Below, piece by piece: positions 14,098 to 32,096 of a stretch of 64,000 bases of DNA. Source of the stretch: Xiphophorus maculatus. Its lineage: Eukaryota; Chordata; Actinopteri; Cyprinodontiformes; Poeciliidae. Under the pieces are notes generated by a model. It worked only from the letters and a program-made list of their open reading frames with translations, was not told the DNA's origin and made no database searches. The stretch is from contig NC_036447.1 of assembly GCF_002775205.1 (NCBI RefSeq), forward strand, positions 22,116,501-22,180,500, in the 5' to 3' direction. Each line of letters begins with the position of its first letter. Position 1 is the first letter of the stretch. The translations under genes and the position numbers were made by a program.

Positions 14098-14934
14098 GGT
14101 ACATTTATACAGAATAACCACAAACACATAAATCCCCCACAGAATCACATCATGTTTACTTTGTGTTTTCAGTGGCTAGAATCAATGCAAACGTGTTGAA
14201 CTCTGCTGATAGTAATGTGGAGATGAGAATCAATGATGTGAGTAAATTGAACATCAGCTATAAGATATTTGATGTTTCTTGAAAAGAGAATCTAATTAAT
14301 TTCATATATTATTATTTTTAGGTCTATGATTTACAAGAGGATGTTGGAGGAGTCGCTTGACCAGACCTGGGAGCAGAGGCTGAGGCCTGTGGGGGCAAAC
14401 CAGTCCATGACTGAGGGAGCTCTGCACCAGGTGGAGGACCAGGCCGAAGGGAGCACACGCCGGTGTAGCAGTTCTTGGGCTGCCGCCCACTAAATCTAGA
14501 CAATCATTTTAATAATAAATGCCTCTGAAGGGCTTAAAATGGTTCTTGTTGTCGTGTCCTCCCAGTTTCTTGTTGCAGTCATCAGAGTTGGGCCGTAACA
14601 TTGTGTAACAGATGTCAGATAAGGATATTTAATACTTATTAGTATTAAATATGTAATATTTAATACTACTTAATAACACCTCAAATGTTATTAAGGTGTG
14701 TTGACACTATATGCAGACAGAACAAGTCAAATTGACATGTACTGTCATATCAGCCTGGGCAGTGAAGGGCAGATGATCTGTTCACTGTGTCACAATATGC
14801 ATCTTTAGGCTCTGTTGTGTTTCTGAAACCAAGAAGGAATTTCAAAAGAAGTTTCAAAGAATCTACACATACAAAAAATTATTCACACCTATGGCAGATT
14901 TAGGAGTTGGGTCCTATTTTAATTTTAGCATTTT
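14098..14934 (+). pseudogene. Orphan 3' end of a C-type Ig receptor gene
   Basis: Nearly identical by eye to two pieces of gene C: its intron after the membrane exon plus the two tail exons (29861-30110), then its downstream region (30497-31093). The intervening ~385 bases are deleted. The 65-nt tail exon is intact at 14173-14237. The last exon begins at 14322 but is cut after VYDLQEDV, where the deletion joins non-coding sequence. No Ig, stalk or membrane exons precede it. The homology begins at the donor site of the missing membrane exon, next to the right end of the hAT-like region. It is a decayed remnant of another C-type gene. Confidence 0.8.
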
Positions 14935-15886
14935 GCTTTGAATGAAAGTAATTTTAACATTTTGGAGTTTCCCAATCTGAGTCTCAACTTGAACCACTAG
15001 AGGGAGCTAAAGATTAGTCTGATGTTAGGGCGACCTTCATACATTAAACACTTGGAGCTCACTATCTGATATAAAATTTTCTTTGAACAAACAGAAGCAT
15101 TCAGTGGAAGATGCAGATAAAGTTGGTGCTGTTTCCATGGTTACAGGTGTTACTTAGCATGCAGTGAACTTCCTTCTCTTCCACCAGATGTTTTCTGCAC
15201 ATGAACAGAATAAAGAAGCACCAATCAAGTTGGTTTTCCCTGAAAAATGATGTAATCTTGTTTTATTAATGTTAATATTTTTTAATAGCAAAAGCTAAAA
15301 AGTCTTTTTTCCAAAATTATACCTAAACTAAAATCAGTGTGTTATCAATAGATTATCTCAATTTTTTTAAGGTTCAGTGCTGTAATGATTAACCTCTTCT
15401 CATCACTAATGTCTTTAATCATAAATAAACAAAAAATTATTCAACTGATAAGTTTTTATGAATTCAACAGATAAAAGCAATAAATACTTGCCTGTGCCGA
15501 CTCGTTTCTTGGTGTGAGAACAAATCAAGTTCCTGAAGAAAATATTTAAGAAAAAGAACATCTGAAGTTCAAACATGAAGATCTGCACAGCTGAGATTAA
15601 AACCAGAAAACTGAGTGTCCCTCAATAATCCACCCAAACTTTGTTGTGGTGAAAAAAATCTATTTCCTGTATTTGTGAGTAAAGCCTGTGAGGTCATCGG
15701 TTGCAGAGTTATCACTTGACCAATGCAGAAACAAGACGTCTAAAACTTGTGAATTAAGTTGACACGTTCAAAAGCTGTTAAACTTTCTGAATGTCAGGAT
15801 CCTTAATAGCTCTGACGTTTCCTCTAAATGTCTCATTTTAAAATAACTTCTGCCTCAGTTTAACTCTGGTTTAGAAGAACAAAGAG
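14935..15886 (+). other. upstream region of Ig receptor gene A
   Basis: AT-rich, with no exon-like sequence. It ends at the ATG of gene A and presumably contains its promoter, but I see no convincing TATA or initiator element that would fix a start site. Confidence 0.35.
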
Positions 15887-18800
15887 ATGTGGAGCCATCA
15901 ACACATCATCATCTGCAGTAAGACATAATATATGATCTACAACAGTTTGCTTCAATCTTATGATGAAATTTATTTAATTTAAATTAAATGTGTTTTTAAA
16001 TAATATATCATTTACTTAAAGACTCGGTAGCACTTCCTGTTTGTGTTGTGACTGAAATGTGATCGTCTGATCTCATACAAACTAATTGTGCTTTTTATTT
16101 GAAAAAGTAGTTTTAAAAACTTGTAAAAAAAAATATTTATTGTTCAAATGTTGAAGCATAAAAACTAAACTGATGTTGTTTTCTGTCTGCAGCAGCTTTG
16201 AGTTTTGTGATCAGTGCTGAAGGTTTGATCCATGTGTTTGGATATGAGGGAAGAGATGTAAAGTTTTATTGCCACTATTATTGGGGATTTGAGGATAGTG
16301 AAAAATACTTGTGTAAGAATGACTGTGGCTCCAGTGGCGTTCTCATTACAACTTTACAGAAGAATAAAGGCAAATATTCCATCACTGATGATAAAAATAA
16401 CAGAATTGTCACAGTGACCATTTCTGATCTTCAATCACATGATGCTGGGAAATACTGGTGTGGAGCCACTAGGTTGTTTATTGATACCTACAGTGAAGTA
16501 AAACTGCACATAAAAGAAGGTAAATAATAAGTTCATGTTTCTATATTTCACTATAGATTTCACAGCAAATTAAAATGAATTAAATGAAGCATCAATGTCT
16601 AACCATGTTAATAATACACACTTTTAATCAATGTGTGGTCTTAAATTTAGCTGTTATTAGAAGCTAAATGTATTTTCTAATTTTGCTAGTTGAATTATCA
16701 TGTACTTGCAGATCTGGATCGTCTTCTATGTTGAAAATAAATACATGTTTAGACATCAATGCAGACATGTTAATACAAGACAATTGTACTAGTCTATAAT
16801 GTTAAATATAAATCTCTATCAAAAAAGTACAACTTTCTTTTATGTTTTAGATTTTTTTCTAGTTTTTCTTTCACTTTACATTGTTTTTTTAACCTCATGT
16901 CAGACAGATGCTGCAACACGGTAAATAAAACCCAAAATATTGAGGAAGGTTCAGTGACCATCAGCTGTCCGTACGACTCTCAGTCTGTCAACAAGCTGAA
17001 ATTCCTCTGCAGAGGAAACCGGCCCTCCACATGTCGACAGCAGGCAGTGATCACCTCTAGCAACACACAAAATGGACGATTCAGAATCTCTGATGACAGG
17101 AAGTCAAGAATATTCACAGTGACCATTTCCAGTCTGACCCTGAAGGATTCTGGGTCGTATCTTTGTGGAGTCCAGAGAAACCCAGGATTTGATGTTTTCT
17201 CTGCTGTTGAACTGAAGGTCAAAGGTGAGAGATCATTCTGCCTTTGCTAATTTGATATTGAATCTTAAGAAGTTTATAAATACAATAGTTATTAAAATTT
17301 CCTTCTCCAGCAAAATTGTTCTGTCTGAAGTCGTACAACATCAGTGGCATTGAGGGACGTCCAGTAACTCTGCAGTGTCCTAATTCAGGACAACAACATG
17401 ATAACAAGAAGTTCCTCTGTAAAGGAGACCAACACAACAACTGTACAGACATGATGGAGAACCAAACAAAGTTCAAGCTGCTCAATGTCTCCTCCACCTG
17501 TTTCTCTGTGATCATCACTGAACTGGAAGCAGCTGATGCAGGAACATACTACTGTGGTTCAGACTCTCAGCTGAGATTCATAAAGATACAGCTGGCAGTC
17601 GGTGAGACCAACACAGAGAGAGATAGAATAATAAAAAGCAACACAAAATCTAGGTTAAGGTTTTTTACCACATTATGTTTTGTATTTTCTCTAACAGTCT
17701 CTCCAAATAAAACCAGCTCTGTGGCTCCAACCAGCTCTGCTGAACATTTGACATCACAGCCACCATCATCACATAATCCTGGTAAACTCTTTAGATTTTC
17801 TGTTTCTCTGTGCCTTTCCTGATTTCCTTCTCTTAGTTTTCCACAAACAGCAGATATTCAAGTACTCAAATACATTAATGGAGTATTAGAGAATGTTGTT
17901 TTGTTGGATTCTCACAGCTTTTCCTGCCTTCACCTCACAGCCTAATGGTAATGCTTCACATGTCCACTGCAGTACACTAATATGAATTTAAGTCAGCCAT
18001 CAAATCAAATCAAATTTTATTTATATAGCACATTTCAGCACCAAGGTATTTCAAAGTGCTTTACATCATAAAAACTCAAACATACAAACTCATAGAACAC
18101 AAAGGCAACATTTGAAACATTATAATTTAGTCAACAAATTGTCTTTGTTAAATTTTCATTGATTATGTTTCAAAAGAAACTAAACAGGTGGGTTTTTAGT
18201 CCAGATTTAAGGGAACTCAGTGTTTCAGCATATTTGCTATTTTCTTGCAGTTTGTTCCAGATTTGTGGTGCATAGAAGCTGAATGTTGCTTCTCCATGTT
18301 TGGTTCTGGTTCTGGAGATGCAGAGCAGAACCAGAACCAGAAGACCTGAGAGGTCTGGAAGGTTGACACAACAACAACAGATCTTTAATGTATTCTGATG
18401 CTGAGCTGTTCAGTGATTTATAAACTAACTGTAGCAGCTTGTGCTCTTTCTAGAAGTTTTATCTCAGGTGTGTCCAATCTCCCATTAGAGACAATTGAGC
18501 CAACACAGGTCAATCCTGGACCTACCAGTCCTTCCTGTTGCCTGGACCTTCATAAATGAAGTCTGAATGTTTAGTGTTGATTTTTTGTAAACAATGTTTC
18601 GAATTGTTATTACATGCTTTTCTTCTCTGTGTCTGTTTTTAGGAAATTTTCTGTCCATGCCTATTGAATATTCAATTCTCTTCTTTTCAGATCTGACCTT
18701 ATTTTACATTCTGCGTGTCGTCCTGTTTCTGCTGTGGATCCTGCCGTTTGTCCTTCTGATGATTCTTAAAAGACAATTGAAGCAACAAGGTGAATTTAAC

Positions 18801-20058
18801 CAGAACATCAACCCACAACAATAAAGAACAAGAAAAAAAGGATCTATGATGTAAGACCACAAAGCTGCCGCTCTGAAAGATTTCTTCTTGCGAGGACATT
18901 AGTTAAGTTTTCATTAACTATAAAATAAATTTGTTTAATGGAAACACACCAATTTCCAAAAAACTTAAGAGTTTCAATAAAACGTTTTGCAGTAGGTATA
19001 TAATGTTTTCCAGTCGTGTTGAAATAGAAGTATTTCGCGAAACTGCAATGGAAAAACTTTTTTTGCATCACACAAGTAACATGATACATATCCAGATGTT
19101 ACTGCTGGCGAAAAAGTTAAAGATGACGACAGGAAACAGTAGCAGGATGATGGTTTGTTTTGGGGCTTTTTTGGGACAATGTGCAGCAGTCTCCACCAGA
19201 GCTCTCACAGTTCATAAAAAATACAAACGTGTAAAATCCACAGCTCTTCTGAGAAATCACAGACTGCAATTTACCCAAAACGCTGCATACAAAGCCGCTC
19301 CCAATAAGCAACTTGTCACTCCAGCATAAGATGCTGACGTCTCCTCTGATGGCTGATAGAGAAGTGCTAGCGCCAAGACTGAATGATGAAAATATCTCAT
19401 TATAACTTTAGTCAAGATTAGCAGAATATTGACAAATATTTGCACACAATTGTAACAGAAACACAGCTAGTGACTGCACTAGTGGATTTCTATATGTCTT
19501 ACTATCCTGGATAGATTACATAAATCTCTAAAACAAAAGTAAAAAGAAGTGATGACAACTGGATCCAAAACGTTTCCTGTTACTTATTTTTATGTCCACT
19601 AGGGAAAGTTTTCTGTTTCTGTTAAGTTTCTCCATGTCTTTGTCACGTCTCAAAAGATGCTTCATCAAAATTTCAACAGGTGGATTTGAGAAGTTTGATC
19701 ACAAATCGCAGCCTTTGAGGATTCAGTATACATTTCTCCTACATTAATAACTTTTTCATCACCCTCTACATTGGTTCTTTGCTCAATGAATGACTTTATC
19801 TTTGTGTTCAGATCCTTCAGGTTTTGTCCTGTGAGATTATGAACATTAATCCAGATTAGTTTTTCTGCTCAGTAATATAAATCTCATTTATCTGAATATC
19901 ATAAATGATTATTTTTCAGATTTGTGAAAATCCAGAAGACAGCTCAACCTTTGCATCAAAGCATCAGGAGCAACGATGAAGCTGCAGAATCTCAACATGT
20001 GAACCAAAGTCTCACCACAAATGAAGATCTTTATTCTGATTGTCGGAAAGCAAATTGA
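15887..20058 (+). CDS. CD300/pIgR-like Ig receptor, gene A
   Basis: Type I membrane receptor of the CD300 (CMRF35-like)/polymeric-Ig-receptor-like group of fish, presumably on leukocytes; the ligand is unknown. Exons: signal 15887-15917; Ig1 16193-16519; Ig2 16904-17224; Ig3 17311-17601; stalk 17698-17781; small stalk exon 17918-17947; membrane 18691-18789; tail 19920-20058. All joints except the last are phase 1. The TM exon ends in phase 1 while the tail frame needs phase 2. A 19-nt micro-exon at 19812-19830, with a good acceptor and a gtgaga donor, would bridge them and give 446 aa. Each Ig exon has the V-set Cys pair and the DxGxYxCG motif (DAGKYWCG, DSGSYLCG, DAGTYYCG), plus an extra Cys after KYLC/KFLC as in CD300/pIgR. 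The membrane segment (ILRVVLFLLWILPFVLLMIL) has an Arg near its outer end. The tail ends in NEDLYSDCRKAN. The Ig1 acceptor is CAGCAG (NAGNAG). Ig1 and the start of Ig3 are unlike genes B and C; Ig2 and the 3' half are nearly identical to gene B. Confidence 0.8.
18001..18470 (-). mobile_element. LINE-type repeat with ATTTG tail, copy in gene A intron
   Basis: Read on the minus strand it ends in tgctatataaataaaatttg followed by (ATTTG)n. This is a common 3' terminus of fish L2/Rex-like elements. Only non-coding 3' sequence is visible. The same insertion sits at 23730-24199 in gene B, so it predates the tandem duplication. Confidence 0.55.
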
Positions 20059-20873
20059 TGAGATGCACTGCAGAGGAAATTATTATATACATTTCAAGCT
20101 AATTTAAAGATTTAGATGCTAATTGCTAAATATTTTAATGATGCAACTTGTTTTATTACAGTAAGTTTCTCCACACAATAATACATAAGAGGTTTTTGAT
20201 GAACCAGCCTTTGTTTCTTTTTAAATTAAGACTAAATCATGAAGGTGATAAGGTTTTCTGTAGAGGAAAACACTTTTTATATCTGCAGTATTTTCATGGT
20301 CTTAAATTGTTCTAGTAATCTGTTTTATGTTTCTATATTTGTCATTTGTCAGCTTGACTGTAAAATAAATTTTAATTTAACCTCAATGTGTGGCAACATG
20401 TTTCTTCCTGCTCATTTTATTCACTAGATTCTGTTACTATAAGCAGTTTTGCAATGAGAGAAAGAGAACCTGGAGAACATCGATGAATGTTCTAAAATAA
20501 ATTATCAAACTATAGACAGAAAGTTCTGCTTCACTTATATGTAAACAGGAAATATTCTTGCTGAGATGATACAGCACTAACCACTACACCTCAGCCCTCC
20601 CACATTTTCTATAACCATTTCCTCCAACTTTGTAAACACTTATTTTAATTTTACTAATAATAAGCATGTCTTCTTACTGTTTTGGTTGTTTTGATAGAGT
20701 TTAGTTTTAGCATTTGAAAAATAGAGAAAATGATCATTTTACACATCATATATGAGGCCTGCTGATATGTGTGAAGGGCTGAACTCATCACACCAATGTG
20801 GTTTCCTTAAAATACGTCATGCTTCACTTCAACATTGTTTCTGGTTTAGTTTGTCGTCCTCAGTAATGCACAG
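20059..20873 (+). other. gene A 3' region and gene B promoter region
   Basis: A candidate poly(A) signal AATAAA lies at 20364-20369. The rest up to the gene B start at 20874 presumably holds the B promoter, including conserved tcacaccaatgtgg and acgtcatgcttc stretches shared with copies C and D. ACGTCA resembles a CRE core, which is suggestive only. Confidence 0.35.
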
Positions 20874-23800
20874 ATGTGGAGCTTCCAGATTGTGTTGTTC
20901 ATCTTGTCTGGTAAGTTTTAATATTTATTTGTTTTCAAATATAAATTAAACAGTTTCCATTGGCTTTAAAAAGCAGGAGTAGATTTTGTCATTTTAAAAT
21001 CATAAACATTTTCTTAACATTATAAAAATTTAGAATAAAATCAATTAGACAAGATGGCGCCCTCTGTAGCTGACATACTACTTTTGTTTTTCGATTTGCT
21101 TTTAAATAAATACGTCTAAAATCTATCCATTGTCTTTTACAGATACGACCTTTTCTATTTATATATTTACTGTTTGCTGAGGAGTCAGACTAAGAATTTC
21201 ATTCTATTTTTTTTACACATGACAATAATTTTTATTTAAAGTTAGTTGCGTTGAATTATATTTTTGTTCTCTCCTGTTTCCAGCTGCTGTGTGTTGTGTG
21301 AGCCGTGCTGCTGGTTTGATTCATGTGTTTGGATACGAAGGAGGAAATGTGAATGTTTCTTGTCCATATGACGAGGGTTATGAAAGTTATGAGAAGTATC
21401 TGTGTAACGACCCCTGTGGAAATAACGATGTTTTCACAAGATCCCAAAAACATAAGAACAAATACTTCACCTATGATGACAAAACATCAAGAATCTTCAC
21501 TGTGACCATCTCTGGTCTATATTTGGATGATGCTCAAACATACTGGTGTGGAGTGAGCAGAAGAGGAAAAGATCTCTACACTGAAGTAAAGCTGGAAGTA
21601 AGAAAAGGTAAATAGTTTTAACTGGAAGATTAAACATTTGAGGTAGCATAATAGATTGAACTTTACAGATGATACACAAAATAATGTATTAGCAGAAATG
21701 TTTTCATGAAGATACTCTGAAATGCAACATTTTGAACTTCCCTCATTCTGTCTCAGGGCAGTCAGACGGTCAGAACTGATTTACACTGACAGAAAATGTT
21801 GAATTATCTGCAAATAAATTCAACATTTACTATATAAGACTCTGAGGCCTTAGAAAGGAAAGCAAGAGAATGAAAACTGTGTGAAAACAGATTCAACACT
21901 GAATATCACTGAAATATTTTGAACATGGATATAAATATAACAGTTCTTATATTTACAATATTTCAAAAATATTTAAAGATTCTCAACAATCTTGGAGGTT
22001 TTTCTGCACCGGCAGTGAGTAGCGCATCATTGATAAGATAAAGATGAGGATTTGTCCCTTAAATGTTTCACATCCATGGCAACATTTTATATTGAATATG
22101 TCCTGATATACATGATGTTCTATAAACTACAATGGACTAAAAAACTACAACACAGCAGGAAGTTTCAGGAAGTCAGAAGACTTAAAAAAAGAAATCTTAA
22201 AAGTCTGAAATAAATGAAGCATCTTAACTTTTTACATATATATCAATTGGTCATTAAAAGAAAAAGGTAACAAAATTAATTGCATTTCATGGTATTGTTG
22301 TTGAAAGGAAAAATACTAATTTAGTTGTTGTACAGTAATGTAATTTATATAAAATCAACTTGGTTACACAGCTATACATTTCAAATATTGCTGTGTAAGC
22401 AAGTAAGCATGCATTGAATATAATTTCTTGTGGGCAATACGTTTTTGTTTTTTTACATTTTAATTTCACTCATATTAAGAGAATGTTATGAACTTTTATA
22501 TTCTAATTTACTTAATTCAAGTTTCTGGTGAACTGTACAGGTTTATGTATCTTTTATTATCTGACAGACTTTTTTATCTTCCTATCAGACAGATGCTGCG
22601 ACAAAGTGAATAAAACCCAAAGTATTGAGGAAGGTTCAGTGACCATCAGCTGTCCGTACGACTCTCAGTCTGTCAACAAGCTGAAGTTCCTCTGCAGAGG
22701 AAACCGGCCCTCCACATGTCGACAGCAGGCAGTGATCACCTCTAGCAACACACAAAATGGACGATTCAGACTCTCTGATGACAGGAAGTCAAGAATATTC
22801 ACAGTGACCATTTCCAGTCTGACCCTGAAGGATTCTGGGTCGTATCTTTGTGGAGTCCAGAGAAACTCAGGATTTGATTATTTCTCTGCTGTTGAACTGG
22901 AGGTCAAAGGTGAGAAATGATAACATTCCTTAATTTCCCCTCCCCCATTTTTGAATTAGTGAAAAGAGCACATATTTTATAAATTGATGCACAGACATTT
23001 GTACCACTAAATCTTATATAGATTCATGTATGAATAAAATCTCTCTGACAGAATTAAAGTCATACAACATCAGTGGCATCGAGGGACGTCCAGTAACTCT
23101 GCAGTGTCCTAATTCAGGACAAGAACATGATAACAAGAAGTTCCTCTGTAAAGGAGACCAACACAACAACTGTACAGACATGATGGAGAACCAAACAAAG
23201 TTCAAGCTGCTCAATGTCTCCTCCACCTGTTTCTCTGTGATCATCACTGAACTGGAAGCAGCTGATGCAGGAACATACTACTGTGGTTCAGACTCTCAGC
23301 TGAGATTCATAAAGATACAGCTGGCAGTCGGTGAGACCAACACAGAGAGAGATAGAATAATAAAAAGCAACACAAAATCTAGGTTAAGGTTTTTTACCAC
23401 ATTATGTTTTGTATTTTCTCTAACAGTCTCTCCAAATAAAACCAGCTCTGTGGCTCCAACCAGCTCTGCTGAACATTTGACATCACAGCCACCATCATCA
23501 CATAATCCTGGTAAACTCTTTAGATTTTCTGTTTCTCTGTGCCTTTCCTGATTTCCTTCTCTTAGTTTTCCACAAACAGCAGATATTCAAGTACTCAAAT
23601 ACATTAATGGAGTATTAGAGAATGTTGTTTTGTTGGATTCTCACAGCTTTTCCTGCCTTCACCTCACAGCCTAATGGTAATGCTTCACATGTCCACTGCA
23701 GTACACTAATATGAATTTAAGTCAGCCATCAAATCAAATCAAATTTTATTTATATAGCACATTTCAGCACCAAGGTATTTCAAAGTGCTTTACATCATAA

Positions 23801-25787
23801 AAACTCAAACATACAAACTCATAGAACACAAAGGCAACATTTGAAACATTATAATTTAGTCAACAAATTGTCTTTGTTAAATTTTCATTGATTATGTTTC
23901 AAAAGAAACTAAACAGGTGGGTTTTTAGTCCAGATTTAAGGGAACTCAGTGTTTCAGCATATTTGCTATTTTCTTGCAGTTTGTTCCAGATTTGTGGTGC
24001 ATAGAAGCTGAATGTTGCTTCTCCATGTTTGGTTCTGGTTCTGGAGATGCAGAGCAGAACCAGAACCAGAAGACCTGAGAGGTCTGGAAGGTTGACACAA
24101 CAACAACAGATCTTTAATGTATTCTGATGCTGAGCTGTTCAGTGATTTATAAACTAACTGTAGCAGCTTGTGCTCTTTCTAGAAGTTTTATCTCAGGTGT
24201 GTCCAATCTCCCATTAGAGACAATTGAGCCAACACAGGTCAATCCTGGACCTACCAGTCCTTCCTGTTGCCTGGACCTTCATAAATGAAGTCTGAATGTT
24301 TAGTGTTGATTTTTTGTAAACAATGTTTCGAATTGTTATTACATGCTTTTCTTCTCTGTGTCTGTTTTTAGGAAATTTTCTGTCCATGCCTATTGAATAT
24401 TCAATTCTCTTCTTTTCAGATCTGACCTTATTTTACATTCTGCGTGTCGTCCTGTTTCTGCTGTGGATCCTGCCGTTTGTCCTTCTGATGATTCTTAAAA
24501 GACAATTGAAGCAACAAGGTGAATTTATCCAGAACATCAACCCACAACAATAAAGAACAAGAAAAAAAGGATCAATGATGTAAGTCCACAAAGCTGCCGC
24601 TCTGAAAGATTTCTTCTTGCGAGGACATTAGTTAAGTTTTCATTAACTATAAAATAAATTTGTTTAATGGAAACACACCAATTTCCAAAAAACTTAAGAG
24701 TTTCAATAAAACGTTTTGCAGTAGGTATATAATGTTTTCCAGTCGTGTTGAAATAGAAGTATTTCGCGAAACTGCAATGGAAAAACTTTTTTTGCATCAC
24801 ACAAGTAACATGATACATATCCAGATGTTACTGCTGGCGAAAAAGTTAAAGATGACGACAGGAAACAGTAGCAGGATGATGGTTTGTTTTGGGGCTTTTT
24901 TGGGATAATGTGCAGCAGTCTCCACCAGAGCTCTCACAGTTCATAAAAAATACAAACGTGTAAAATCCACAGCTCTTCTGAGAAATCACAGACTGCAATT
25001 TACCCAAAACGCTGCATACAAAGCCGCTCCCAATAAGCAACTTGCCACTCCAGCATAAGATGCTGACGTCTCCTCTGATGGCTGATAGAGAAGTGCTAGC
25101 GCCAAGACTGAATGATGAAAATATCTCATTATAACTTTAGTCAAGATTAGCAGAATATTGACAAATATTTGCACACAATTGTAACAGAAACACAGCTAGT
25201 GACTGCACTAGTGGATTTCTATATGTCTTACTATCCTGGATAGATTACATAAATCTCTAAAACAAAAGTAAAAAGAAGTGATGACAACTGGATCCAAAAC
25301 GTTTCCTGTTACTTATTTTTATATCCACTAGGGAAAGTTTTCTGTTTCTGTTAAGTTTCTCCATGTCTTTGTCACGTCTCAAAAGATGCTTCATCAAAAT
25401 TTCAACAGGTGGATTTGAGAAGTTTGATCACAAATCGCAGCCTTTGAGGATTCAGTATACATTTCTCCTACATTAATAACTTTTTCATCACCCTCTACAT
25501 TGGTTCTTTGCTCAATGGATGACTTTATCTTTGTGTTCAGATCCTTCAGGTTTTGTCCTGTGAGATTATGAACATTAATCCAGATTAGTTTTTCTGCTCA
25601 GTAATATAAATCTCATTTATCTGAATATCATAAATGATTATTTTTCAGATTTGTGAAAATCCAGAAGACAGCTCAACCTTTGCATCAAAGCATCAGGAGC
25701 AACGATGAAGCTGCAGAATCTCAACATGTGAACCAAAGTCTCACCACAAATGAAGATATTTATTCTGATTGTCGGAAAGCAAATTGA
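20874..25787 (+). CDS. CD300/pIgR-like Ig receptor, gene B (hybrid)
   Basis: Three-Ig type I receptor of the same group. Exons: signal 20874-20910 (MWSFQIVLFILS); Ig1 21284-21607; Ig2 22589-22909; Ig3 23052-23330; stalk 23427-23510; small stalk exon 23647-23676; membrane 24420-24518; possible 19-nt micro-exon 25541-25559; tail 25649-25787. The total is 443 aa if the micro-exon is used. Ig1 (GLIHVFGYEGGNVNVSCPYD, then KYLCNDPCG, DAQTYWCG) and the signal peptide are almost identical to gene C. The membrane segment and tail are almost identical to gene A (tail NEDIYSDC versus NEDLYSDC in A). B is therefore best read as a recombinant: C-type outside, A-type membrane and inside. Sequons include NKT in Ig2, and NCT, NQT and NVS in Ig3. 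No frameshift or stop was seen in the assembled exons. Confidence 0.8.
21047..21231 (+). mobile_element. short LINE-derived insert in intron 1 of gene B
   Basis: Begins gacaagatggcgccctctg, resembling the 5' ends of some LINEs. It ends in gtcagactaagaatttcatt...gacaataat, resembling fish LINE 3' ends. With only about 185 bp between, it is probably an internally deleted or non-autonomous copy. The same insert lies in gene C (26776-26960) and copy D (31704-31884), but not in gene A. Confidence 0.45.
23730..24199 (-). mobile_element. LINE-type repeat with ATTTG tail, copy in gene B intron
   Basis: Duplicate of the insertion at 18001-18470, carried along by the 5,729-bp tandem duplication. Gene C lacks it at the equivalent place. 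Confidence 0.55.
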
Positions 25788-26602
25788 TGAGATGCACTGC
25801 AGAGGAAATTATTATATACATTTCAAGCTAATTTAAAGATTTAGATGCTAATTGCTAAATATTTTAATGATGCAACTTGTTTTATTACAGTAAGTTTCTC
25901 CACACAATAATACATAAGAGGTTTTTGATGAACCAGCCTTTGTTTCTTTTTAAATTAAGACTAAATCATGAAGGTGATAAGGTTTTCTGTAGAGGAAAAC
26001 ACTTTTTATATCTGCAGTATTTTCATGGTCTTAAATTGTTCTAGTAATCTGTTTTATGTTTCTATATTTGTCATTTGTCAGCTTGACTGTAAAATAAATT
26101 TTAATTTAACCTCAATGTGTGGCAACATGTTTCTTCCTGCTCATTTTATTCACTAGATTCTGTTACTATAAGCAGTTTTGCAATGAGAGAAAGAGAACCT
26201 GGAGAACATCGATGAATGTTCTAAAATAAATAAGCAAACTATAGACAGAAAGTTCTGCTTCACTTATATGTAAACAGGAAATATTCTTGCTGAGATGATA
26301 CAGCACTAACCACTACACCTCAGCCCTCCCACATTTCCTATGACCATTTCCTCCAACTTTGTAAACACTTATTTTAATTTTACTAATAATAAGCATGTCT
26401 TCTTACTGTTTTGGTTGTTTTGATAGAGTTTAGTTTTAGCATTTGAAAAATAGAGAAAATGATCATTATACACATCATTTATGGGGCCTGCTGATATGTG
26501 TGAAGGGCTGAACTCATCACACCAATGTGGTTTCCTTAAAATACGTCATGCTTCACTTCAACATTGTTTCTGGTTTAGTTTGTCGTCCTCAGTAATGCAC
26601 AG
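25788..26602 (+). other. gene B 3' region and gene C promoter region
   Basis: Duplicate of 20059-20873 with a few substitutions. Candidate AATAAA at 26093-26098. No other gene is visible. Confidence 0.35.
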
Positions 26603-29600
26603 ATGTGGAGCTTCCAGATTGTGTTGTTCATCTTGTCTGGTAAGTTTTAATATTTATTTGTTTTCAAATATAAATTAAACAGTTTCCATTGGCTTTAAAA
26701 AGCAGGAGTAGATTTTGTCATTTTAAAATCATAAACATTTTCTTAACATTATAAAAATTTAGAATAAAATCAATTAGACAAGATGGCGCCCTCTGTAGCT
26801 GACATACTACTTTTGTTTTTCGATTTGCTTTTAAATAAATACGTCTAAAATCTATCCATTGTCTTTTACAGATACGACCTTTTCTATTTATATATTTACT
26901 GTTTGCTGAGGAGTCAGACTAAGAATTTCATTCTATTTTTTTTACACATGACAATAATTTTTATTTAAAGTTAGTTGCGTTGAATTATATTTTTGTTCTC
27001 TCCTGTTTCCAGCTGCTGTGTGTTGTGTGAGCCGTGCTGCTGGTTTGATTCATGTGTTTGGATACGAAGGAGGAAATGTGAATGTTTCTTGTCCATATGA
27101 CGAGGGTTATGAAAGTTATGAGAAGTATCTGTGTAACGACCCCTGTGGAAAAAACGATGTTTTCACAAGATCCCAAAAACATAAGAACAAATACTTCACC
27201 TATGATGACAAAACATCAAGAATCTTCACTGTGACCATCTCTGGTCTATATTTGGATGATGCTCAAACATACTGGTGTGGAGTGAGCAGAAGAGGAAAAG
27301 ATCTCTACACTGAAGTAAAGCTGGAAGTAAGAAAAGGTAAATAGTTTTAACTGGAAGATTAAACATTTGAGGTAGCATAATAGATTGAACTTTACAGATG
27401 ATACACAAAATAATGTATTAGCAGAAATGTTTTCATGAAGATACTCTGAAATGCAACATTTTGAACTTCCCTCATTCTGTCTCAGGGCAGTCAGACGGTC
27501 AGAACTGATTTACACTGACAGAAAATGTTGAATTATCTGCAAATAAATTCAACATTTACTATATAAGACTCTGAGGCCTTAGAAAGGAAAGCAAGAGAAT
27601 GAAAACTGTGTGAAAACAGATTCAACACTGAATATCACTGAAATATTTTGAACATGGATATAAATATAACAGTTCTTATATTTACAATATTTCAAAAATA
27701 TTTAAAGATTCTCAACAATCTTGGAGGTTTTTCTGCACCGGCAGTGAGTAGCGCATCATTGATAAGATAAAGATGAGGATTTGTCCCTTAAATGTTTCAC
27801 ATCCATGGCAACATTTTATATTGAATGTGTCCTGATATACATGATGTTCTATAAACTACAATGGACTAAAAAACTACAACACAGCAGGAAGTTTCAGGAA
27901 GTCAGAAGACTTAAAAAAAGAAATCTTAAAAGTCTGAAATAAATGAAGCATCTTAACTTCTTACATATATATCAATTGGTCATTAAAAGAAAAAGGTAAC
28001 AAAATTAATTGCATTTCATGGTATTGTTGTTGAAAGGAAAAATACTAATTTAGTTGTTGTACAGTAATGTAATTTATATAAAATCAACTTGGTTACACAG
28101 CTATACATTTCAAATATTGCTGTGTAAGCAAGTAAGCATGCATTGAATATAATTTCTTGTGGGCAATACGTTTTTGTTTTTTTACATTTTAATTTCACTC
28201 ATATTAAGAGAATGTTATGAACTTTTATATTCTAATTTACTTAATTCAAGTTTCTGGTGAACTGTACAGGTTTATGTATCTTTTATTATCTGACAGACTT
28301 TTTTATCTTCCTATCAGACAGATGCTGCGACAAAGTGAATAAAATCCAAAGTATTGAGGAAGGTTCAGTGACCATCAGCTGTCCGTACGACTCTCAGTCT
28401 GTCAACAAGCTGAAGTTCCTCTGCAGAGGAAACCGGCCCTCCACATGTCGACAGCAGGCAGTGATCACCTCTAGCAACACACAAAATGGACGATTCAGAA
28501 TCTCTGATGACAGGAAGTCAAGAATATTCACAGTGACCATTTCCAGTCTGACCCTGAAGGATTCTGGGTCGTATCTTTGTGGAGTCCAGAGAAACTCAGG
28601 ATTTGATTATTTCTCTGCTGTTGAACTGGAGGTCAAAGGTGAGAAATGATAACATTCCTTAATTTCCCCTCCCCCATTTTTGAATTAGTGAAAAGAGCAC
28701 ATATTTTATAAATTGATGCACAGACATTTGTACCACTAAATCTTATATAGATTCATGTATGAATAAAATCTCTCTGACAGAATTAAAGTCATACAACATC
28801 AGTGGCATCGAGGGACGTCCAGTAACTCTGCAGTGTCCTAATTCAGGACAACAACATGATAACAAGAAGTTCCTCTGTAAAGGAGACCAACACAACATCT
28901 GTACAGACATGATGGAGAACCAAACAAAGTTCAAGCTGCTCAATGTCTCCTCCACCTGTTTCTCTGTGATCATCACTGAACTGGAAGCAGCTGATGCAGG
29001 AACATACTACTGTGGTTCAGACTCTCAGCTGAGATTCATAAAGATACAGCTGGCAGTCGGTGAGACCAACACAGAGAGAGATAGAATAATAAAAAGCAAC
29101 ACAAAATCTAGGTTAAGGTTTTTTACCACATTATGTTTTGTATTTTCTCTGACAGTCTCTCCAAATAAAACCAGCTCTGTGGCTCCAACCAGCTCTGCTG
29201 AACATTTGACATCACAGCCACCATCATCACATAATCCTGGTAAACTCTTTAGATTTCTTTCTATATCTCTGTTACTCCTGTTGTTTGTTCAGTCTTCTCA
29301 TTCCAATCATTAGAAATATCCAGATGTTCAGAGTTATCTTCTCTGAGCTGCTTTATAACGTAAAGTGGATTTCTGCATTATTAAACTGAAGTCTGAGTTT
29401 TATCAGTTTTGAATTGACTGATATAAACAACAATCCAGACCTAACCATCTACATTAACAAAGCATTTACACATTCATAAAAGGAGATTTTTTAGGTAAGA
29501 CAGTAAAGTTTCTCTTTTCAAGGAATCATGCCACTGAGGTTTGAACTTGAAGTGGTAGACATATTGACTTACCATAATGGATTTAAATGTATCAACAATA

Positions 29601-30180
29601 AGTTAAGAAAACCATCTAAATGTGGTGGAGATAGAACGAGAAAACAGGAACATGTCTATCAGGTCTGACTAAAATAAGTAATTCATGTCATTCTGTGATG
29701 TTTCTGTGGAGGGTTCTGTTTCTGTGAACCAGCTAAGTTCTCCATTTCCTTGTTTTCAGATGTTTCTTTATTCTACATTCTGCCTGCGGTCTTCGCTCTG
29801 CTTCTGATCCTGACATTTGTCCTTTTGCTGGTTTTAAAATACAAATCAAGGATCAAGCAAGGTACATTTATACAGATTATACACTAACACATAAATCTTC
29901 CACAGAATCACATCATGTTTACTTTGTGTTTTCAGTGGATGGAATCAATGCAAACGTGTTGAACTCTGCTGATAGTAATGTGGAGATGAGAATCAATGAT
30001 GTGAGTAAATTCAACTTCAGCTACAAGATATTTGATGTTTCTTGCAAAGAGAAACCAATTAATTTCATATATTATTATTTTTAGGTCTATGATTTACAAG
30101 AGGATGTTGTTTACATGAACTCTTCCTTTCCAAACATGTTGAATCGTGATAACAATGATATCTACAACAACATCCTTTAA
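26603..30180 (+). CDS. CD300/pIgR-like Ig receptor, gene C
   Basis: Three-Ig type I receptor, 435 aa, with all exon phases closing. Signal 26603-26639; Ig1 27013-27336; Ig2 28318-28638; Ig3 28781-29059; stalk 29156-29239; membrane 29760-29861; tail 29936-30000 and 30085-30180 (stop TAA 30178-30180). The ectodomain is nearly that of gene B. Two substitutions destroy sequons: NKT to NKI in Ig2 and NNCT to NICT in Ig3. The membrane segment (ILPAVFALLLILTFVLLLVL) has no charged residue, unlike A and B. The tail is unrelated to A and B and has three tyrosines, in VYDLQ, VVYMNSS and DIYNNIL. The last two fit the YxN consensus bound by Grb2-type SH2 domains; neither is a canonical ITIM because position -2 or +3 fails. 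The small stalk exon of A and B is not seen here. AATAAA at 30672-30677 may serve as its poly(A) signal. Confidence 0.85.
26776..26960 (+). mobile_element. short LINE-derived insert in intron 1 of gene C
   Basis: Same insert as at 21047-21231, in the same position of the gene. Confidence 0.45.
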
Positions 30181-31550
30181 AGGAGACCAGCAGAAGTTAA
30201 GAACCACGTGACCAATGTTTCTAACATCTTGGGTGTGATGATGGCCCCCTGCCTGCTGTTTTGCAATGTGGCCTGTTAATTTTCATTCAATGAGGGTCTT
30301 GGAGTTGGGAGTTGCTTATAATCACTGGTCCACCTGGATCATGTATCCAGGGGCCTGGATGACCATTCATGGACATCCAGGCCCAGAAGCAGAGAGAACT
30401 AGAGGTCAGATCGAGAGGCGGAGCCAGGAACCAGAAGGTGTGGGGTGCTTCAGTCGCTTGACACGATGTGGGAAAAAGTTTGTGGTTCGGATGGACCACA
30501 TGTGGAGGAGTCGCTTGACCAGACCTGGGAGCAGAGGCTGAGGCCTGTGGGGGCAAACCAGTCCATGACTGAGGGAGATCTGCACCAGGCGGAGGACCAG
30601 GCCGAAAGGAGCACACGCCGGTGTAGCGGTTCTTGGGCTGCCGCCCACTAAATCTAGACAATCATTTTAATAATAAATGCCTCTGAAGGGCTTAAAATGG
30701 TTCTTGTTGTCGTATCCTCCCAGTTTCTTGTTGCAGTCATCAGAGTCAGGCCGTAACATTGTGTAACAGATGTCAGATAAGGATATTTAATACTTATTAG
30801 TATTAAATATCTAATATTTAATACTTATTAGTTTTTATCTCAACTGTTATTAAGGTGTGTTGAAACTATATGCAGACAGAACAAGTCAAATTGACATGTA
30901 CTGTCATATCAGCCTGGGCAGTGAAGGGCAGATGATCTGTTCACTGTGTCACAATATGCATCTTTAGGCTCTGTTGTGTTTCTGAAACCAAGAAGGAATT
31001 TCAAAAGAAGTTTCAAAGAATCTACACATACAAAAAATTATTCACACCTATGGCAGATTTAGGAGTTTGGTCCTATTTTAATTTTAGCATTTTCTTTCAC
31101 TAGATCCTGTTACTATAAGCAGTTTTTGCAATGAGAGAAAGAGAACCTGGAGAACATCGATGAATGTTCTAAAATAAATAAGCAAACTATAGACAGAAAG
31201 TTCTGCTTCACTTATATTTAAACAGGAAATATTCTTGCTGAGATGATACAGCACTAACCACTACACCTCAGCCCTCCCACGTTTCCTATGGCCATTTCCT
31301 CCAACTTTGTGAGCACTTATTTTTATTTTACTAATAATAAGCATGTCTTCTTACTGTTTTGGTTGTTTTCACAGAGTTCAGTTTTATTATTTGAAAAATA
31401 GAGAAAATGATCATTATACACATCATTTATGAGGCCTGCTGATATGTGTGAAGGGCTGAACTCATCACACCAATGTGGTTTCCTTAAAATACGTCATGCT
31501 TCACTTCAACATTGTTTCTGGTTTAGTTTGTCGTCCTCAGTAATGCAAAG
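30181..31550 (+). other. gene C 3' region and copy D upstream region
   Basis: 30497-31093 is the block also found at 14340-14934. At about 31094 it switches to sequence homologous to the region upstream of genes B and C (from 20426), leading to the copy D start. The junction marks an old recombination or duplication breakpoint. The open frames at 30266-30661 on both strands belong to this repeated non-coding block and match no family I know. Confidence 0.5.
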
Positions 31551-32096
31551 ATGTGGAGCTTCCAGATCGTGTTGTTCATCTTGTCTGGTAAGTTTTAATA
31601 TTTATTTGTTTACAAATATAAATTAAACAGTTTCCATTGGCTTTAAAAAGCAGGAGTAGATTTTGTCATTTTAAAATCATAAAAATTTAGGCTAAAGTCA
31701 AATAGACAAGATGGCGCCCTCCGTGGCTGATATACTACTGTTGTGTTTCTTTTTGCTTTTAATTAAATACATTTACAATCAATCCATTATCTTTTATAGA
31801 TATGGCCTTTTCTATTTATATATGTACACTTTGCTGAGGAGTCAGACTAAGAATTTCATTCTATGTTTTTACAAATGACAATAATTTTTATTTAAAGTTT
31901 GTTGCGTTGAATTATATTTTTGTTCTCTCCTGTTTCCAGCTGCTGTGTGTTGTGTGAGCCGTGCTGCTGGTTTGATCCGTGTGTTTGGATACAAAGGTGG
32001 AAATGCGAATGTTTCCTGTCCATATGACGAGGGTTATGAAAGTTATGAGAAGTATCTGTGTAACAACCCATGTGGAAAAAACGATGTTTTCACAAG
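31551..32096 (+). pseudogene. Ig receptor copy D, 5' remnant
   Basis: Signal exon 31551-31587 (MWSFQIVLFILS) and the first half of an Ig1 exon from 31940, both clearly homologous to genes B and C but more diverged (GLIRVFGYKGGNANVSCPYD, KYLCNNPCG). The Ig1 exon breaks off after NDVFT/S, where retrotransposon sequence begins. No Ig2, Ig3, stalk or tail exons follow before r3hcc1l, so the gene is a truncated stub. The same intron-1 LINE insert is present at 31704-31884. Confidence 0.88.

Follow-up and report, generated by a model that had tools for sequence, protein, structure and literature searches.

In this study, we analyzed a 64,000-nucleotide stretch of the Xiphophorus maculatus genome (NC_036447.1, positions 22,116,501 to 22,180,500; hereafter the window, numbered from its first letter), in which three predicted receptor genes, A, B and C, lie head to tail. 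Gene B appears to be a hybrid that carries the ectodomain of C on the membrane segment and tail of A, and an A-like gene that crossed over unequally with a C-like one probably gave rise to it.

Genes A, B and C

The three gene models, whose ectodomains are built from immunoglobulin (Ig) domains of the V-set type, and the exons of B are as follows.

15,887-20,058, plus strand: gene A; signal, A-type Ig1, Ig2, Ig3, C-type stalk, arginine membrane exon and A tail; 436 amino acids predicted
20,874-25,787, plus strand: gene B, from the signal-exon ATG to the stop of the A-type tail frame; 433 amino acids predicted
26,603-30,180, plus strand: gene C; C-type ectodomain, uncharged membrane exon, tail tyrosines YDLQ, YMNS and YNNI; 435 amino acids predicted
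20,874-20,910, plus strand: B signal exon (MWSFQIVLFILS, phase 1), with ATG and GT donor; identical to C
21,284-21,607, plus strand: B Ig1 exon, C-type V-set; Pfam V-set 32.5 bits (cut-off 26); 108/109 amino acids vs C, 57/108 vs A
22,589-22,909, plus strand: B Ig2 exon, V-set; Pfam V-set 47.6 bits; 105/107 amino acids vs C, 100/107 vs A
23,052-23,330, plus strand: B Ig3 exon, V-set; Pfam V-set 35.8 bits; the C-to-A switch probably lies here or in the next intron
23,427-23,510, plus strand: B stalk exon; 84/84 bases identical in A, B and C
24,420-24,518, plus strand: B membrane exon, A-type with arginine (DLTLFYILRVVLFLLWILPFVLLMILKRQLKQQ), identical to A; C has DVSLFYILPAVFALLLILTFVLLLVLK
25,541-25,559, plus strand: B cytoplasmic micro-exon of 19 nucleotides, predicted by splice-site scan and uncertain; puts the last exon in frame
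25,649-25,787, plus strand: B last exon, predicted from frame and tail-peptide conservation; A-type tail ending in ...NEDIYSDCRKAN

Sequence and splice signals give A, B and C the same plan, namely a signal peptide, three V-set domains, a Ser/Thr-rich stalk, one membrane segment and a tail. All of their predicted introns are GT-AG, and B is open across its predicted exons. The exon boundaries from the signal through the membrane segment share phase 1; therefore, exchange of these exons keeps both frame and splicing. The Pfam V-set profile scored above its cut-off in all four exons scanned (Ig1, Ig2 and Ig3 of B and Ig1 of A), and in sequence matches to PDB the three domains of B were closest to pIgR (secretory component, E=1.1e-36), followed by CMRF35-like molecule 1 (E=4.6e-12). 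By these matches, A, B and C qualify as predicted members of the pIgR/CD300-like V-set receptors. The limits of B proposed earlier from the letters alone were confirmed, 20,874 being the signal-exon ATG and 25,787 the stop of the A-type tail. An out-of-frame ATG lies at 20,866, 8 bases ahead of the B start codon, and the same methionine stands in open frames of C and of a gene remnant, D, described below; this upstream ATG may affect translation.

The structure of the A/B tail is predicted with less certainty than the rest of the models. The last exon of A and B is out of frame if spliced directly to the membrane exon, and the micro-exon of B restores the frame. The last-exon acceptor adopted here for B, 25,649, scores -0.5 on a simple splice scale, under the scan threshold. 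The splice scan favoured 25,697, and both of the models it retained begin the last exon there, with tails of 33 and 36 residues ending in ...IYSDCRKAN. Conservation of the tail peptide bears on this choice, as 44 residues are unchanged across three related A-type genes downstream (A1-A3, see below) and show one change in A. Alternatively, read-through of the membrane-exon donor could give A and B a short end, GEFIQNINPQQ, at an AATAAA.

The tandem duplication and the identity switch in gene B

When the window was compared with itself, the dominant match was a head-to-tail pair with an offset of 5,729 base pairs (bp). Its parts are listed here.

17,328-23,527, no strand: duplication copy 1; 3′ part of A, intergenic DNA and 5′ part of a C-type gene; ends overlap copy 2
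23,057-29,256, no strand: duplication copy 2; gap-free 99.58% match to copy 1
23,057-23,527 (B coordinates), plus strand: block common to A, B and C, the joint; Ig3 exon, short intron and stalk exon
20,503-20,755 (253 bp), no strand: upstream patch; 7/22 differences of one period

The two copies align over 6,200 bp with 26 mismatches. One exact 5,729-bp period carries 22 substitutions (23 if cut further right), or 0.38-0.40%, and no insertions or deletions (indels); A and B are identical over 17,395-18,798. The block common to the three genes is close to the overlap of about 457 bp, at 23060-23516, that the sequence-only reading had described. The patch just upstream of the B start is a probable conversion patch. 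It contains 7 B-C differences, and at 6 of these the C flank has the state of remnant gene D.

In steps of 200 bp, the identity of A to B runs from 45% (intron) through 77%, 97.5% (Ig2 exon) and 77.5% (intron and the start of Ig3) to 100%, and that of B to C stays at 99-100% as far as the stalk and then falls to 83% and 50%. A switch of identity had been expected near 23060-23516, and these profiles place it there. The same change is seen at sites that discriminate A from C. The count began at the Ig2 exon and ended some 70 bp past the right edge of the block, and it left out two sites private to B, of which Ig2 and Ig3 each contain one. Of the 54 discriminating sites up to 23,080, B has the C state at 53 (10 of 11 within the Ig2 exon alone), and at all 30 from 23,169 on it has the A state. 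Fisher's test for the switch gives p = 6e-22, a value whose precision is overstated because 40 of the 54 sites belong to the intron that precedes Ig3 and 28 of the 30 to the region past the right edge, both being stretches where the alignment of A with C is poor; the direction of the switch is still clear. After polarisation by paralogues of the cluster, the last site with a derived state common to B and C is 23,062, and the first with a derived state common to B and A is 23,422. The position corresponding to 23,080 in B carries a T private to A. The crossover site is most likely to lie between 23,062 and 23,422, in the Ig3 exon or the intron that follows.

The predicted proteins agree with this picture. 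Through the stalk, B differs from C at 5 of 348 residues (Ig3 alone matches at 91/93), and in the membrane segment and tail it differs from A at 1 of 85. Thus the description of B as a C-type ectodomain on an A-type membrane segment and tail, first made from the bare sequence, is borne out by the duplication, the site switch and the predicted proteins alike.

Related genes downstream and the origin of gene B

A search with B was made across the 704-megabase assembly (101 contigs), in which 62 matches were listed and 40 of 6,980 candidates were scored. Among the matches listed, gene parts all lay on the 33-megabase contig of B within 161 kilobases (kb), and those on other contigs were all an intron repeat. 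This dispersed repeat occupies the stalk-membrane intron at 23,725-24,162 and 17,996-18,433 and occurs on many contigs at 81-85% identity. We examined the adjoining 130 kb as well (194 kb in total, hereafter in extended coordinates), placing exons by tblastn and searching for membrane exons with two queries only, A-type and C-type.

An inverted block downstream contains three A-C pairs, A1-C1 (89-81 kb), A2-C2 (111-103 kb) and A3-C3 (134-125 kb), and tblastn over the adjoining 130 kb placed no B between the partners of any of them. Along its left part (95-106 kb) the middle unit is the same as unit III but for 2 substitutions, and along its right part (108-116 kb) the same as unit I but for 1, with about 50 indels; because it is a composite of III and I, the three B-less pairs count as two independent ones. 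These paralogous pairs of the same genome served here in place of an unduplicated haplotype. This unit (95-116 kb; contig positions 22,211,500-22,232,500) has clustered indels, with frameshifts in A2 and C2, as if it had been either duplicated very recently or wrongly assembled. Protein comparison therefore covered seven of the nine genes, A2 and C2 being left out for their frameshifting indels.

All six A-type membrane exons found carry the arginine (A, B, A1, A2, A3 and a gene at 158,450), and all six of C-type found are without charge (C, C1-C3 and two fragments). From the membrane exon to the tail, A and B of the window are 97.3-97.7% identical to A1-A3 and 99.5% identical to each other, which makes B much younger than the A1-A3 copies. 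A further gene on the minus strand, 161,192-155,282, has a third type of Ig1 (54-55% to A and B), an A-type arginine membrane exon and a stop in the tail frame.

Downstream, A and C partners share one ectodomain type, with Ig1 matches of 101/109 for A1-C1 and 89/109 for A3-C3; in the window, A and C do not (57/108), and B and C do (108/109). Because A and C of the window are mismatched and B and C are matched, the crossover restored the kind of matched pair seen elsewhere. C1-C3 begin with C-type 5′ sequence (to the window equivalent of 21,280), continue with A-type sequence (from 15,561) and end with a C-type membrane exon; therefore, the reverse arrangement, an A-type ectodomain with a C-type tail, exists too. 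The junctions of C-type first intron and A-type upstream sequence fall at 84,310/84,311, 106,682/106,683 and 129,028/129,029, and each of C1-C3 should thus contain two successive signal exons, the first C-type and the second A-type. Across all nine genes, Ig2 and Ig3 are 96-100% identical, and Ig1 of B and C is 67-70% identical to that of the other seven. This points to frequent exchange in the cluster, in which misalignment at Ig3 would have been made easy by near-identity.

We consider it likely, with good though not full confidence, that neighbouring head-to-tail A and C genes misaligned at the near-identical Ig3-stalk segment and crossed over unequally, giving a tandem duplication. The resulting haplotype would be A-B-C, in which B starts with the 5′ flank, signal exon and Ig domains of C and ends with the membrane exon and tail of A. 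Unequal crossing-over is the best account because the duplication has a single gap-free period, its joint lies in the longest near-identical A-C segment and B-less A-C pairs occur nearby. A tandem period with both partners intact was found together with one identity switch in the shared sequence, and the exchanges that A and C genes have undergone in other parts of the cluster also favour a crossover. A conversion of a whole duplicated C by the 3′ part of A would likewise fit a cluster in which exchange is common, as the Ig2 and Ig3 identities indicate. However, neither a duplicated C 3′ end nor an A 5′ end remains between A and C, and the period is uniform and gap-free from Ig3 of A to Ig3 of C; we regard this origin as very improbable.

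Several observations weigh against the crossover account. One discriminating site in Ig2 has B in the A state; between 23,062 and 23,422 the switch depends on the two polarised sites; and a more distant gene (159,742) likewise has the state of A and B at 23,422. Additionally, two alleles can also diverge by 0.38%, so that the identity would fit a false duplication in the assembly as well, and the block at 95-116 kb of the same cluster is a composite that is nearly free of substitutions and has its indels in clusters. A single A-C locus might thus have had its two alleles placed in tandem through the Ig3-stalk block, in which case B would exist on no chromosome; the divergence falls within the range of heterozygosity, and the composite block suggests that the cluster may be difficult to assemble. 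However, the shared block of about 470 bp is far below the length of long reads (a long-read assembly being judged from contiguity), the 194 kb examined contain no N, and the copies around B differ by substitutions without indels, unlike the composite block. Moreover, no second locus appeared elsewhere among the matches listed, with 40 of the 6,980 candidates scored. An artefact of this kind therefore seems improbable to us, if less so than gene conversion.

Crossing-over alone does not account for every exchange. The stalk exon of A matches that of C at 84/84 bases and that of C1 at 79/81; the A genes come less close, A3 at 64/81 and A1 at 57/63 with a gap of 21 bases. These figures were recounted on the exact exon; fixed 90-base slices had cut C2, C3 and A1 unevenly (C3 = 80.5% there) and were not used. 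At the four neighbouring stalk sites that part A1/A3 from C/C1/C3 (23,431-23,435), A is in the C state at 4/4, and at such sites from 23,529 on it is in the A state at 10/10. Because a single crossover leaves A unaltered and yet the stalk of A is C-type, a further exchange of A with C (or B) is needed. It may have taken place before the crossover, supplying the homology, or afterwards from B, and in either order it would be part of the same history. The sequence-only reading had one unequal crossing-over explain both edges of the shared segment; this stands as the best account of the duplication, and the C-type stalk of A requires a second exchange beyond it.

In another possible order, the crossover took place at the right-hand boundary of the block (about 23,511-23,528) and joined a C-type stalk to an A-type intron, after which Ig3 and the stalk of A were converted by B. 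This order would suit both the C-type stalk of A and the identity of A and B across 17,395-18,798. Nevertheless, it is equally parsimonious, with one exchange whichever the order, and the T private to A at 23,080 is no better explained by either. This order is a rather unlikely variant of unequal crossing-over, and what probability we give it is contained within that of the crossover account.

Other features around the three genes also bear traces of earlier events. A C-type cytoplasmic exon fragment upstream of A (14,098-14,346; 94% to 29,861-30,109) is, by its sequence, a leftover of an earlier C-type gene. Remnant gene D (31,088-32,096) consists of a C-type 5′ flank, a signal and about half of an Ig1, 92-93% identical to B and C, and is broken at about 32,096 by unrelated sequence with no Pfam hit there. 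The far upstream region of D matches that of A (30,500-31,097 vs 14,341-14,939), which suggests the loss of an A gene between them. The flanking genes are as follows.

7.6-9.8 kb, minus strand: CRTAC1-like gene
33.0-34.9 kb: middle gene without a Pfam hit
46-52 kb, minus strand: LOXL-like gene

In the CRTAC1-like and LOXL-like neighbours, ASPIC/UnbV, lysyl oxidase and SRCR scored over the Pfam cut-off and FG-GAP below it. We take the gene without a Pfam hit to resemble R3HCC1L, and the gene order presumably recalls human 10q24. Human CD300 lies on chromosome 17 and PIGR on chromosome 1, as given in the parts of the two sources used (PMC12447643, PMC3031540).

Predicted pairing of B and C and comparison with known receptors

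B and C combine near-identical ectodomains (Ig1 108/109, Ig2 105/107, Ig3 91/93) with different membrane exons and tails. The membrane arginine of B stands near the outer end of the segment, and a membrane arginine is found in receptors that pair with FcR-gamma or DAP12. A search of PDB with the arginine segment gave no sequence match at E up to 10; its presumed likeness to the membrane segment of FcR-gamma was not used as evidence. The A-type tail has one tyrosine, and that of C has three (YDLQ, YMNS, YNNI), with two YxN motifs. A motif search found no canonical immunoreceptor tyrosine-based inhibitory motif (ITIM; [SIVLT]xYxx[ILV]) in either predicted tail, and no immunoreceptor tyrosine-based activation motif (ITAM) was seen in the tails by eye.

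From this arrangement, B would be transcribed like C through its inherited copy of the C upstream flank, would bind what C binds through the C ectodomain and would signal by pairing its membrane arginine with an ITAM adaptor, for example FcR-gamma or DAP12; B would then be an activating twin of C. The case for an activating twin beside an inhibitory receptor is only half made, the tail of C being without a canonical ITIM. On balance, the chance that B acts as an activating partner appears to fall just short of even. The sequence-only reading had a signalling module swapped under an existing binding module in a single step; the swap itself is seen in the predicted proteins, the single-event account is incomplete, and the signalling meaning is a prediction.

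B may also be real and yet a neutral by-product of copy-number change without a function of its own, which is compatible with an origin by crossing-over. B is very young, and all six of its coding differences (5 vs C, 1 vs A) are replacements, too few to argue selection or to part it from weak constraint. In contrast, its frames, splice signals and upstream flank are intact, and matched ectodomain pairs recur in the cluster. We hold neutrality to be a serious possibility, somewhat on the doubtful side.

We speculate that the cluster repeatedly regenerates matched pairs, in which one binding module is carried once on an arginine segment and once on a tyrosine tail, and that B is a newborn activating partner, possibly still polymorphic in copy number; we advance this tentatively and think it rather doubtful. 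To the same doubtful reading belongs the proposal that the downstream pairs were matched by a swap in the opposite direction, placing an A-type ectodomain on C-type genes, and that the B crossover restored the match in the window.

Related arrangements have been described in other receptors. Carp SITR is a CD300/pIgR-related receptor of a teleost multigene family (PMC3031540) and resembles A, B and C in its CD300/pIgR-like V domains and its membership of such a family. It differs in having two Ig domains and no membrane segment, and the part of the source used mentions no hybrid gene. Siglec-11 and Siglec-16 are inhibitory and activating partners whose extracellular parts are extremely similar through gene conversion (PMC5701461), a similarity that B and C share; these genes are, however, primate sialic-acid lectins, and no hybrid third gene is mentioned in the portion of the source used. 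CD300A and CD300C have paired ectodomains kept alike by gene conversion, with alike V-type ectodomains over differing membrane and tail parts and a charged membrane residue in one partner, as is the case here (PMC12447643). In contrast to the three Ig domains of A, B and C, CD300 has one; CD300C carries a glutamate where A and B carry an arginine; and CD300A has ITIMs and gene C none (PMC12447643, as far as the source was used). Furthermore, a third gene would have arisen here by crossover and not by conversion alone. Among the PMC papers listed, at most 8-20 per search and in one case 15 of 865, no title or abstract opening dealt with a hybrid of the kind of B in a teleost CD300/pIgR-like cluster.

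Ideas on the birth of activating partners among innate receptors come mostly from older pairs. In the present case the event is recent enough for both parents, the hybrid and its joint to be resolved to a few hundred bases, and nearby in the cluster lie comparable pairs without B as well as genes from the reverse swap. The idea that one crossover can give an existing binding module a new signalling output thereby comes within reach of a direct test in receptors other than the KIR, LILR and Siglec families. The closest parallel is the KIR fusion genes of primates, in which unequal recombination of head-to-tail genes shuffles binding and signalling domains (PMC7516082); head-to-tail immune receptor genes, unequal recombination and a domain-shuffling fusion gene would be common to both systems. 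KIR, however, is another receptor family, and the breakpoints of the few fully sequenced human fusion genes lie, in the part of that source used, in intragenic transposable elements (PMC7516082), whereas the joint of B lies in the conserved Ig3-stalk segment. The birth of receptors as hybrids is thus already known from KIR, and B is an unusually fresh and clear further case.

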